A DNA stretch of 53,374 nucleotides, taken from positions 1 to 53,374 of the forward strand of contig WLPU01000013.1 of assembly GCA_009698615.1 (NCBI GenBank), in the 5' to 3' direction. The DNA comes from Actinomycetota bacterium. Lineage in GTDB: Bacteria; Actinomycetota; Actinomycetes; Nanopelagicales; Nanopelagicaceae. Position numbers and translations under genes: made by a program. The notes below the pieces were generated by a model. That model saw nothing but the letters and a program-made list of their open reading frames with translations. It did no database searches and was not told where the DNA came from. Below, piece after piece: positions 7,035 to 10,411 of the stretch (position 1 is the first letter of the stretch; each line of letters starts with the position of its first letter).

Positions 7035-7311
7035 TTGCCTCATGGGCACGCTCAGAGCCTTTGAATACGTGCCTTTATCCCTTACCGATGGGGATTTGTA
7101 TCAGCGAGCAATCGTGGCTCGACCCAATGTTTCGGCGCCATGGTGTCAGCTTCGGTAACAATTCCCTGCCGCCCTTGTACATGGGCGACCGAGTCAATCA
7201 ATGGGCCTGTCCCGTCTCAACCAAACCAGCCTCCTTCAACGCTGGCCAACTGTGCGCCTGAGCCCAGCAAAGGTTCACCTAACTCTCAGGAAGATGGAGT
7301 TACCTAGCGCC

Positions 7312-8658
7312 ATGTCCGAGCCAACGCGCAGCACCAAAACAGCAGGGGTCGATTGGGCAGCGCTGATTACTGGCCTTGGCCTTGGTCTGACGATCGCGTT
7401 GCAACTGACGACTCTTCGCAAATCTGACATTTCATCGGTGTATTCATCTATCAATTCACTCTCACGATTGTGCGCACTTGTCGGAACTTATTTTGCACTT
7501 CTTGGAATATTGCTCGTCGCTCGCATTCCGTGGGTCGAACGCGGAGTCGGTCACGATCGTCTAGTGACATGGCATCGCAAACTTGGACCGTATTCACTCT
7601 TCCTCGTGGGATTTCATGTTCTCTTTGTCGTCTTCGGTTATGCCGGTCAAGATCACCTCTCTCTCATTGTCGAGTTATGGCGCCTTCTGCACCAATTCTT
7701 ATGGATGTGGGCAGCCCTTGCCGGATTTATTTTCATGATGGCTGCAGGGATAAGTTCCTATAAGAAGGCTCGCGCCAAAATGAGTTATGAAACGTGGTGG
7801 CTAATCCATATTTATACTTACCTTGCAATTGGACTTTCCTTTATGCATCAAGTTCTCAACGGCCCAATGTTTATTGGCCACCCACTCAATCGTGCCTACT
7901 GGACTGCCCTCTATATAGTGATGGCATTTAGTATTGTGGTTTGGCGACTTGGAATTCCAATCGCTCGATCCGTTCGTCATAATTTAAAAGTTGAAAAAGT
8001 AGTTATTGAGGGCCCTGGAGTTATCTCAGTTATTATGCGCGGCCGTAAATTGCATAAATTGGCGGCAGAGGGCGGACAATTTTTTGGATGGCGCTTTTTT
8101 GCACGCAACCATCTTCTTATGTCGCACCCCTATTCATTGTCAGCAGCGCCCACCGAACATCTCTTACGCATTACCGTGAAAGATTTGGGTGATCATTCGC
8201 GCTCCCTGGCATATCTCAAGCCTGGTACACGCGTTTTCGTCGAAGGTCCCTACGGTGCATTTACTGCAGGACGCTCATCCCGCCCTCACGTTGTATTAGT
8301 TGGTGGCGGTGTTGGAATCACACCTATTCGCGCGATCATGGAAGAGTTTCGCGACGGGGTCCAAATGGACGTTATTTATCGGGCCTCTCGCGAGGAAGAC
8401 CTAGTTTTGCGCGACGAGCTCGATTACTTGGCTAATCAATCCGAGGACACAATTCGAGTTCATTATTTAGTTGGTCCTCGCAAGCAACACCCTATGGATG
8501 CTAAGACTTTAAGAAAACTTGTGCCGCGCTTTGCCGATTCTGATATCTATATTTGCGGACCTGGCCCACTCGTTGAGGCAGTCCGTTCTGCCGCGCGCGA
8601 TTGTGGCGTTCCAAAGAACCGTTTCCACGATGAAGCTTTCGCTTTCCATTCCGAGTGA
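7312..8658 (+). CDS. Ferric-reductase-like transmembrane flavocytochrome
   Basis: A 448-residue protein of the ferric reductase / NADPH oxidase type, which moves electrons from NAD(P)H through FAD and membrane hemes to the outside. Residues 15-215 form about six membrane helices with paired histidines H88/H102 and H166/H179, the usual spacing for two b-hemes. An FAD-binding domain follows with HPYSLSAAP (residues 272-280). A NAD-binding domain has VGGGVGITPIR (330-340) and ends in a CGPGP motif. ATG 7312 is chosen because the conserved sequence begins there and GGAG lies 12 bases before; ATG 7294 is possible. The next genes encode an FMN-binding exported protein and the enzyme that attaches FMN, so this protein probably feeds electrons to them. 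Confidence 0.85.
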   Translation: MSEPTRSTKTAGVDWAALITGLGLGLTIALQLTTLRKSDISSVYSSINSLSRLCALVGTYFALLGILLVARIPWVERGVGHDRLVTWHRKLGPYSLFLVGFHVLFVVFGYAGQDHLSLIVELWRLLHQFLWMWAALAGFIFMMAAGISSYKKARAKMSYETWWLIHIYTYLAIGLSFMHQVLNGPMFIGHPLNRAYWTALYIVMAFSIVVWRLGIPIARSVRHNLKVEKVVIEGPGVISVIMRGRKLHKLAAEGGQFFGWRFFARNHLLMSHPYSLSAAPTEHLLRITVKDLGDHSRSLAYLKPGTRVFVEGPYGAFTAGRSSRPHVVLVGGGVGITPIRAIMEEFRDGVQMDVIYRASREEDLVLRDELDYLANQSEDTIRVHYLVGPRKQHPMDAKTLRKLVPRFADSDIYICGPGPLVEAVRSAARDCGVPKNRFHDEAFAFHSE

Positions 8659-8666
8659 GGGTTGAA

Positions 8667-8804
8667 ATGAATAGTCGCACCGCACCCTCGGGACTAATTA
8701 AGGCATCTCTCAGGTTTCGAGACCACAGTGCCCCTATGAAACTATCCGCGGCGACCTTTCAGGGGCGCTCGGTAGTTCTCCATGTAGAGGAGGGGAGAGT
8801 ATGA
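8667..8804 (+). CDS. Possible 45-residue small ORF coupled to the FMN-binding protein gene
   Basis: ATG 8667 follows GAGGG (8657-8661) by five bases. The frame stays open for 45 codons and its stop overlaps the next start as ATGA (8801-8804). The peptide is basic, without a clear membrane segment, and I do not recognise it. The geometry suits translational coupling, but chance is not excluded. The region could simply be leader for the strong ribosome site GAGGAGGGGAG. Confidence 0.3.
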   Translation: MNSRTAPSGLIKASLRFRDHSAPMKLSAATFQGRSVVLHVEEGRV

Positions 8805-9622
8805 AACGCGCGTTGCTGATAGCAGGTGGCACCATCGGCGGCCTCGGTGCAGTTTTATCGATCACTCCACCACAATTAAACACAACAAGTATGGCTGGGT
8901 TAGCGGGCACAACTGCTCCAACAAATATGCCAGCTCCTGCAAATACATCATCGATGGCTTCATCGAATTCCTCTGGTCAACAGAATTCAACGTCGTCAAC
9001 CGCGGCGCAATCAACTTCTACCTCTTCTACCTCTTCGACATCAACGACAAAGGCTGCAACTCAAAAAGTTGCCAAGAAGTCTTCCGCAGCTAAGTCCGCC
9101 AATTCAACCGCAAAGAGTTCGGCAAAGGCTGCATCAAACTCTTCTACTAATGCCACGACTTCTTCAAATGGAGCCTCTGGTAATTCAAATTCGTCAACTA
9201 CTAATTCAAATTCGTCGGCAACTAACTCAAATTCTTCTGCCTCAGTGACCGCCTCTACTCCTACCCCTTCATCAACCCCTACGAAAACGGTTGAACCTGC
9301 CCCTACAAAATCTGCAGCTCCAACACCTGTTGAACCAACAACGCAGGGGGTGAACGGGGATTTCACAGGCACAACGGTTAATGTTGGTTACGGAAACGTG
9401 CAAGTTCGCATCACTGTTAAAAATGGCAAAATCACTGACGCCCAAGCCTTACAAGCACCTAATGGACGAAATGATCGTTTTACCAATTACGCAGTTCCAA
9501 TCCTTCGCCAACAAACGTTGGCAGCGCAATCGTCGAAGATTCAAGGCGCCTCCGGTGCTTCTTATACTTCGTGGGGCTGGTACACGTCGCTGCAAGCAGC
9601 CCTAGTTAAAGCCGGCATGTGA
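8801..9622 (+). CDS. Exported FMN-binding domain protein with Ser/Thr/Ala-rich linker
   Basis: A 273-residue protein. Residues 1-25 form a signal peptide or anchor. Residues 30-185 are low-complexity Ser/Thr/Asn/Ala, Lys/Ala and Pro/Thr stretches, probably a wall-spanning linker. Residues 187-273 form an FMN-binding domain (PF04205 type). Such domains carry FMN covalently bound to the last Thr of a D-x-x-(S/T)-G-A-T motif, attached by ApbE. Here the motif reads Q248-G-A-S-G-A-S254, so Ser254 is the likely site. A strong ribosome site (GAGGAGGGGAG) precedes the ATG. It sits between a ferric-reductase-like gene and apbE, which supports a role as an extracytosolic electron carrier. Confidence 0.8.
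   Translation: MKRALLIAGGTIGGLGAVLSITPPQLNTTSMAGLAGTTAPTNMPAPANTSSMASSNSSGQQNSTSSTAAQSTSTSSTSSTSTTKAATQKVAKKSSAAKSANSTAKSSAKAASNSSTNATTSSNGASGNSNSSTTNSNSSATNSNSSASVTASTPTPSSTPTKTVEPAPTKSAAPTPVEPTTQGVNGDFTGTTVNVGYGNVQVRITVKNGKITDAQALQAPNGRNDRFTNYAVPILRQQTLAAQSSKIQGASGASYTSWGWYTSLQAALVKAGM
9182..9244 (+). repeat. Three tandem 21-bp units in the linker of the FMN-binding protein
   Basis: Units at 9182-9202, 9203-9223 and 9224-9244 share the core AAATTC and encode NSNSS followed by two small residues. They keep frame, so slippage would change linker length by seven residues without breaking the gene. Confidence 0.8.
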
Positions 9623-9634
9623 CATCATCAGCGC

Positions 9635-10411
9635 GTGGCACATCTCTCCGCTGAAATAGAAGTGTGGGGAACGGTCCTTTATTTAGAGATCGCATCCCCC
9701 ATCGACAATCAAGGAGCACTCAGCGCTGGCATCGAAAGGGTGCGCGAATTTACAACGCACGTCGATGGAGTCTTTTCTACATATAAAGAGAATTCAACCG
9801 TTTCGCAACTGCGCCGAAATGAAATTACCATCGATCAAACATCCGATGAAGTTCGCGATGTGTGGCGAAGGTGTGAAAGTGCAAGGTATCTCACTGACGG
9901 AGCATTTGATCCATGGGCGATTGAAGGTGGATTTGATCCTTCAGGCCTTGTTAAAGGTTGGGCAGCAGATCGATGCGCTGAAATTTTGTTGGCCAATGGT
10001 GCGGTGCATGTGCAAGTCAATGCTGCAGGCGACATTTCTCTGCGCGGCGGATATCTAGAAGGCCAAAGCGTCTCACCGTGGTCGATAGGTGTGGTTAACC
10101 CTGAAATCCGTAAAGAGATTTTGCAAGTATTTAAAATTACCGATGGTGCAATTGCAACAAGTGGAACTTACGAACGTGGTACACATATTTTTGATCCGCA
10201 TTCAGGCTTGATTGCAATCGGCGCAAAGTCCGCAACAGTTTTGGGGCCAGATGGCGCTATGGCTGATGCACTCGCAACCGCACTCATGGTCGAAGGTAGG
10301 GACGGCGCAATGTGGTTTTCGCAACCAGAATTAGTGCAATATTCAGCGTGGGTTATCGATCGTCAAGAGGATATCGCGTGGAGTGTTGGACCTGACATAG
10401 GGCAGGATTAA
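9635..10411 (+). CDS. apbE: ApbE family FAD:protein FMN transferase
   Basis: A 258-residue flavin transferase that cleaves FAD and links FMN to a Thr/Ser of target proteins outside the membrane, using Mg2+. Family motifs are clear: GGFDPSGLVKGWAADRC (FAD site), VNAAGDISLRG, ATSGTYERGTHIFDPHSG and the metal-binding DGAMADALATALM. No signal peptide is visible, although many ApbE proteins are exported lipoproteins. The start is GTG 9635, 12 bases after the FMN-binding protein gene, with no ribosome site. Its natural substrate is almost certainly the adjacent FMN-binding protein. Confidence 0.9.
   Translation: MAHLSAEIEVWGTVLYLEIASPIDNQGALSAGIERVREFTTHVDGVFSTYKENSTVSQLRRNEITIDQTSDEVRDVWRRCESARYLTDGAFDPWAIEGGFDPSGLVKGWAADRCAEILLANGAVHVQVNAAGDISLRGGYLEGQSVSPWSIGVVNPEIRKEILQVFKITDGAIATSGTYERGTHIFDPHSGLIAIGAKSATVLGPDGAMADALATALMVEGRDGAMWFSQPELVQYSAWVIDRQEDIAWSVGPDIGQD

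Follow-up and report, generated by a model that had tools for sequence, protein, structure and literature searches.

We analyzed a three-gene set on the plus strand of a 53,374-nucleotide contig (WLPU01000013.1 of assembly GCA_009698615.1; the whole of this stretch is hereafter termed the window) from an actinobacterium of the Nanopelagicaceae. The original prediction, made from the sequence alone, had recognized here adjacent genes for a ferric-reductase-like flavocytochrome, an FMN-binding protein and the flavin transferase ApbE, and Pfam and genome searches confirm that the set is real, with every feature at its predicted place between 7312 and 10411. The first gene (7312..8658) codes for a 448-residue protein that joins a ferric-reductase domain (FRD) to an FNR module, as recognized by its Pfam matches and four invariant histidines; the second (8801..9622) for a 273-residue FMN-binding protein that is predicted to be exported; and the third (9635..10411), which begins with GTG, for an ApbE without a signal peptide. 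The genome, at 1.5 Mb and 99.98% complete, yielded a single FMN_bind protein and a single ApbE in genome searches, and hence each is the other’s only partner from these families. The FRD–FMN_bind–ApbE order recurs throughout the family, as well as in other loci of Actinomycetota and Chloroflexota, and the arrangement is therefore not a chance one. The named relatives are freshwater actinobacteria; one of them, a Candidatus Nanopelagicaceae genome (L123), falls within the same supported FRD-tree clade as the window.

The FRD–FNR protein matches PF01794 (E 3.5e-14), PF08022 (1.8e-5) and PF00175 (5.3e-12), and is laid out as a six-helix ferric-reductase domain with an FAD domain and an NAD(P)H domain behind it on the cytosolic side. 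Its start is placed at 7312, where the homologues begin at the same alignment column; the longest open reading frame (ORF) begins at 7201. Two haems are predicted to be liganded by His88/His102 and His166/His179, all of which are invariant in 28/28 homologues, and the spacing of these residues (14 and 13) is that of the haem histidines of human NOX2 (101/115 and 209/222; PMC3591440). The extra histidine of the NOX proteins, at position 119 of NOX2, which serves as a class criterion (PMC3591440), is absent: its place is taken by V106 here and by V, I or T in 28/28 homologues. In YedZ/MsrQ, Arg replaces the first haem histidine; in this family that position is His88 in 28/28, and no PF00174 (Oxidored_molyb, MsrP-type) match was found in the genome. 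Because the protein has all four haem histidines, along with the FAD and NAD(P)H domains, it classifies by sequence as a long form of the bacterial ferric reductases and not as a true MsrQ.

The FMN gene is preceded by the ribosome-binding-site-like GAGGAGGGGAG. Its product did not match PF04205 when the whole protein was run through hmmscan at 1e-3; in a six-frame genome search, however, its score of 27.9 bits (E 4.8e-6) exceeded the threshold of 22, and the crystal structure 8P2A is matched at E 1.6e-34 by a profile built from related proteins. At the N-terminus lies MKRALLIAGGTIGGLGAVLSITPPQL (8801..8878, plus strand), a Sec-type membrane anchor predicted by the positive-inside rule to be N-in/C-out, whose hydrophobic stretch (residues 4–22) reads as a signal anchor. 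In the relatives the anchor takes the form M-[KR][KR] (with KR, RR, RK and KK variants), then about 18 hydrophobic residues and an S/T/P-rich linker, and because it is conserved on the FMN proteins the FMN_bind domain should be situated outside the cell. In the window there follows a linker of 158 residues (8879..9352, plus strand) dominated by Ser, Thr, Ala and Asn (43 S, 32 T, 26 A and 15 N), whose entropy of 2.96 bits is below the 3.86 bits of the domain. The low-complexity linker of about 150 residues in the original prediction thus stands, but the 21-bp repeat attributed to it covers only 54 bp (9181–9234; 2.6 copies, TRF score 80), the bulk of the linker being low-complexity without this unit. 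It could conceivably let the domain reach through the cell wall, as had been suggested; in 63 homologues the linker ranges between 29 and 298 residues. The FMN_bind domain proper (9353..9619, plus strand) is modelled by AlphaFold with a mean pLDDT of 94 (model of 9344–9619) and superposes on 8P2A with a TM of 0.90, a root-mean-square deviation of 0.8 and 51% identity. The 8P2A structure is that of the second domain of Streptomyces azureus SaFMN3, in which Thr72 bears the FMN, and Tyr14, Ile45 and Tyr73 interact with it (PMC10339131); these residues correspond to Ser254, Tyr197, Phe227 and Tyr255 in the window protein, with the flavin-stacking Tyr pair kept. In unlinked FMN_bind proteins of relatives (L077 and L090), the domain lies close to the N-terminus, with a long P/T-rich tail behind it and a similar C-terminus that contains Cys.

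The flavinylation motif, Gln248-Gly-Ala-Ser251-Gly-Ala-Ser254 (9542..9562, plus strand; Ser254 codon at 9560–9562), reads exactly as originally given. As the equivalent of the FMN-bearing Thr72 of 8P2A, Ser254 is correctly placed in the model for flavinylation, and we infer that the flavin would be attached there. The Ser, together with a Gln in place of the usual Asp, had been put forward as the distinguishing feature of the module; the Ser is indeed conserved in the relatives, but the combination is clade-wide and not remarkable. An alignment of homologues, which had been proposed as a check with Thr in all close relatives as the contrary outcome, finds Ser at the attachment site in 31/31 FMN_bind copies from 20 genomes of the genus (written SGAS, TGAS or GGAS), and Asp at the motif in just 3/31. 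Elsewhere in the family both residues are encountered at this site, Thr as well as Ser, and the classical D..SGAT dominates in other families of the class. In a set of 139 non-redundant domains with the motif, the attachment site is occupied by Ser in 80, Thr in 54 and Gly in 5, the last being probably misreads of diverged copies by the search pattern, and the Asp position holds Gln in 53, Asp in 26, Asn in 18 and Ala in 14. On an FRD tree of 111 proteins, constructed by a quick method without bootstrap from a sample weighted to the window’s kin, there are at least 14 Ser/Thr changes and 6 between Asp and other residues. The genus copies, the domain counts and the tree exclude Ser254 as a peculiarity of this genome. 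An SGAS within an FMN_bind fold also falls within the [S/T]GA[S/T] rule stated for the domain in PMC8238504; being both clade-wide and covered by this rule, Ser without Asp is, on the sequence evidence, an ordinary variant and the normal motif in this family. The effect of Asp-to-Ala is reported to be minor and Thr-to-Ser cuts labelling in engineered proteins (10–55%; PMC12052999), and the same review calls the motif Asp strictly conserved. In a few relatives the FMN_bind homologue lying between the FRD and ApbE genes (L051 515–1207 in G035, L053 2200–2892 in G029 and L127 1203–1919) has instead NSCRS[QR]AS, with a nearby Cys and the motif Gly replaced; ApbE is retained in these loci.

A straightforward interpretation is that the module very probably constitutes a three-gene transmembrane electron-export system of the published MsrQ-like flavinylated type. 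Under this proposal, NAD(P)H would reduce the FAD in the cytosolic FNR domain, and the electrons would cross the membrane via two b haems in the FRD helices to reduce the FMN that ApbE would have bound covalently to Ser254 of the FMN_bind domain. This domain would be held outside the cell by the N-terminal anchor and the flexible linker, and its reduced FMN would pass the electrons to an external acceptor, perhaps O2 or, in the service of iron assimilation, chelated Fe(III). The outward direction is suggested by the presence of the NAD(P)H domain together with the charges of the anchor. Hence, the outward flavin-based electron-transfer module of the original prediction is supported; iron reduction or external respiration, which it had offered as a possible function, stays conjectural, the cluster having no iron gene and FTR1 being near-universal.

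Certain observations weigh against this interpretation: the Asp that should precede the first [S/T] of the motif by three residues is absent, its place being taken by Gln248; the window’s ApbE has no leader (neither a secretion nor a lipoprotein signal), which leaves the modification of an exported domain unexplained; and no acceptor gene is recurrently linked among the neighbouring genes of the FRD loci, where the recurrent genes code for a sensor kinase, a response regulator, an ABC transporter, an NAGPA-like protein and an aldo/keto reductase, none of them a clear acceptor. The missing Asp is not defining, because this residue is present in no more than the above-noted 26 of 139 homologues and its replacement by Ala has a minor effect. 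One could nevertheless take Ser and Gln to be signs of loss at a degenerate site that no longer binds flavin, in line with the lowered labelling upon Thr-to-Ser substitution, the reported conservation of the Asp and the complete loss of the motif in a few relatives (NSCRSQASF in L051, L053 and L127). However, with Ser in every genus copy, the flavin-stacking Tyr residues kept and the neighbouring ApbE intact with its catalytic residues, we consider such degeneration very improbable.

The ApbE matches PF02424 (E 1.7e-37), and its fold matches that of the Vibrio ApbE 6NXI (Foldseek E 1.2e-16). Its Ser176, His184 and Asp211 match the Ser-His-Asp catalytic set described for ApbE (PMC12052999), the first two being invariant and the Asp present in at least 90% of homologues. 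In the 9611–9660 region an in-frame stop is located four codons upstream of the GTG start, and residues 2–10 form a core strand of the ApbE fold. Among 90 non-redundant FRD-linked ApbEs, a stop lies within 25 codons before the conserved W/MGT in 39, and an upstream extension with a hydrophobic stretch (a 15-residue Kyte-Doolittle mean of at least 1.6) is possible in two, both of which look like overlaps with the upstream gene, so that about 88/90 are without a signal peptide. As a positive control, the E. coli lipoprotein Ftp reaches 1.99 on this scale; unlinked actinobacterial ApbEs, collected as a control set, also appear leaderless and hence offer no positive control. On these sequences, leaderlessness may characterize the phylum at large and not this system in particular. 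ApbE is usually exported, with a secretion signal that is typical but not universal (PMC12052999). The missing export signal, which the original prediction had overlooked, leaves three readings: attachment of the flavin ahead of export or in its course, exit of ApbE by an unknown route, or an error in the predicted topology. For the Actinomycetota FRD–FMN_bind–ApbE systems, we tentatively suggest that flavinylation might occur in the cytosol before or during export, with the modified protein crossing the membrane (or else with ApbE leaving by an unknown route); if so, cytosolic flavinylation would remove the need for FAD export. Passage of a pre-flavinylated protein by the Tat (twin-arginine translocation) route was considered and appears less likely: TatC is present, but KK anchors in place of RR occur beside the same type of ApbE and, judging from the anchor sequences, a strict Tat signal is not conserved. 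A fusion of the FMN protein to ApbE by read-through of the FMN stop was also rejected, in that the two genes share a frame here but not in many relatives.

Within the electron-export interpretation, the acceptor could be named by supposing that the module is an assimilatory ferric reductase, which would reduce Fe(III) at the surface and feed an FTR1-type permease. We regard this as a real possibility that falls somewhat short of probable. It accords with the four-His long form of the FRD protein devoid of the NOX-type histidine (V106), with the presence of VIT1 in 153 of 1,797 MsrQ-like clusters in the published survey (PMC8238504), and with a genome that has FTR1 and VIT1 and no match to FeoB_C or FecCD. 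However, both FTR1 and VIT1 are unlinked to the module, whose cluster lacks an iron gene, and FTR1 sits alone elsewhere. FTR1 is, moreover, near-universal in the family and does not track the module; because it is also found in relatives without ApbE (G021, G023 and G031), it gives no co-occurrence support for iron, and we dropped it as such. Thus, iron as the acceptor is plausible but unproven. Alternatively, the module might reduce O2 or balance redox, with reduced FMN disposing of excess reductant or generating peroxide. O2 is a possible sink since the nearest measured homologue, the flavinylated Streptomyces protein SaFMN3 (-184 mV), reacts with it when reduced (PMC10339131), and the habitat is presumably oxic; yet it does so slowly (1.2 per s), O2 reactivity is a general property of free reduced flavoproteins, and the position of NOX2 His119 is V, I or T throughout the homologues, so that we view this function as rather unlikely. 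Still less probable is a role as electron donor to a periplasmic reductase in the manner of MsrPQ: membership in the FRD superfamily and the published MsrQ-like label would favor it, but the absence of PF00174 from the genome largely refutes MsrP as the partner, and no recurrent reductase adjoins the module.

We also uncovered a direct-repeat element, TTAAGGCATCTCTCAGGTT (8698..8716, plus strand), in the FRD–FMN intergenic gap, with the consensus TTMAG-N4-CTCWCAGGTT and a CAG-to-CAG period of 11 bp. With at most one mismatch it is seen in 18/25 family loci whose gap was read, lying exactly 54 bp before the FMN start in 12 loci and 84 bp before it in the window; since the pattern was drawn from those gaps themselves, its conservation in them is not independent evidence, whereas its rarity elsewhere in the genomes is. 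A scan of 21 genomes returned 15 matches in the 13 of them that belong to the genus, i.e., about one per genome, only two of which (L217 and L218) lie outside the FRD–FMN gap; G010 has a weaker site with three mismatches, and the large genome G039 has three further matches adjoining unrelated genes. The 11-bp spacing fits the direct repeats bound by regulators of the OmpR/PhoB type, and kinase and response-regulator genes often flank distant FRD clusters. From this pattern, the element is probably a dedicated response-regulator site for the FMN and apbE genes. No riboswitch was recovered in the gap, there being no Rfam match up to E 1. The gap also holds, by eye, a 44-codon ORF (8668–8804) that starts at 8668 and ends overlapping the FMN start codon by ATGA.

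Downstream, a gene for an HbpS-like protein (PF03928; 10415..10906, plus strand) begins 3 bp past apbE; it travels with the following PfkB block and lies outside the module in distant kin, and it is assigned to that block of sugar genes and not to the electron-transfer set. The window has a single FMN_bind gene, whereas other members of the genus (L065, L067, L072, L074, L075, L080 and L084) carry a tandem FMN_bind pair between FRD and ApbE; in most of these pairs one of the two genes has diverged and its product bears a long linker. In the relative G007, three near-identical FRD–FMN cassettes occur on the short contigs C24, C25 and C30 (L081, L079 and L082), reflecting either duplication or the splitting of the assembly.

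The window module is thus a well-supported further case of a published system with an ordinary variant of the motif, and it extends this little-tested form of electron export to abundant, streamlined freshwater actinobacteria. Two parts are worth following, the ApbE without a leader and the module’s private direct repeat: the former, paired with an apparently exported substrate, poses the question of where flavinylation occurs and by what means a protein with covalent flavin gets across the membrane, and the latter offers a route to the signal that turns on the module and, thereby, to the acceptor.

Among known systems, the closest parallel is furnished by the 1,797 “MsrQ-like” flavinylation clusters, found broadly in Actinobacteria, of which 1,437 have PF00175 (Meheust 2021, eLife, PMC8238504). 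In the passages describing them, these combine a PF01794 membrane protein with PF00175, FMN_bind and apbE in one cluster and are mostly actinobacterial, and the window likewise has a PF01794 protein clustered with FMN_bind and ApbE; it differs from that description in its Ser and Gln for Thr and Asp, its long linker and its streamlined freshwater host, and its leaderless ApbE is a feature that those passages do not discuss for these systems. SaFMN3 shares the FMN_bind fold, the N-terminal anchor and the flavin-stacking Tyr residues, but has three domains where the window protein has one, with Ser for Thr72, Gln for Asp and Phe227 for Ile45 in the latter; a three-domain SaFMN3 homologue adjoins FRD and ApbE in a relative from the same class (G054). 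MsrQ/YedZ have in common with the module the FRD superfamily membrane domain, whereas the window protein keeps all four haem histidines, has the FNR fused to it and resides in a genome without MsrP. The FmnB/PplA system of Listeria similarly deploys a flavinylated protein outside the membrane to hand electrons to external acceptors; there, FmnB is described as acting outside the cell with flavin exported to it (PMC9973259). The electrons enter that system by other membrane proteins. Finally, the cytosolic ApbE of Klebsiella that operates with a soluble fumarate reductase is, in the account given in PMC12052999, likewise devoid of a signal peptide; however, its substrate is cytosolic, whereas that of the window ApbE is membrane-anchored and apparently outside the cell.

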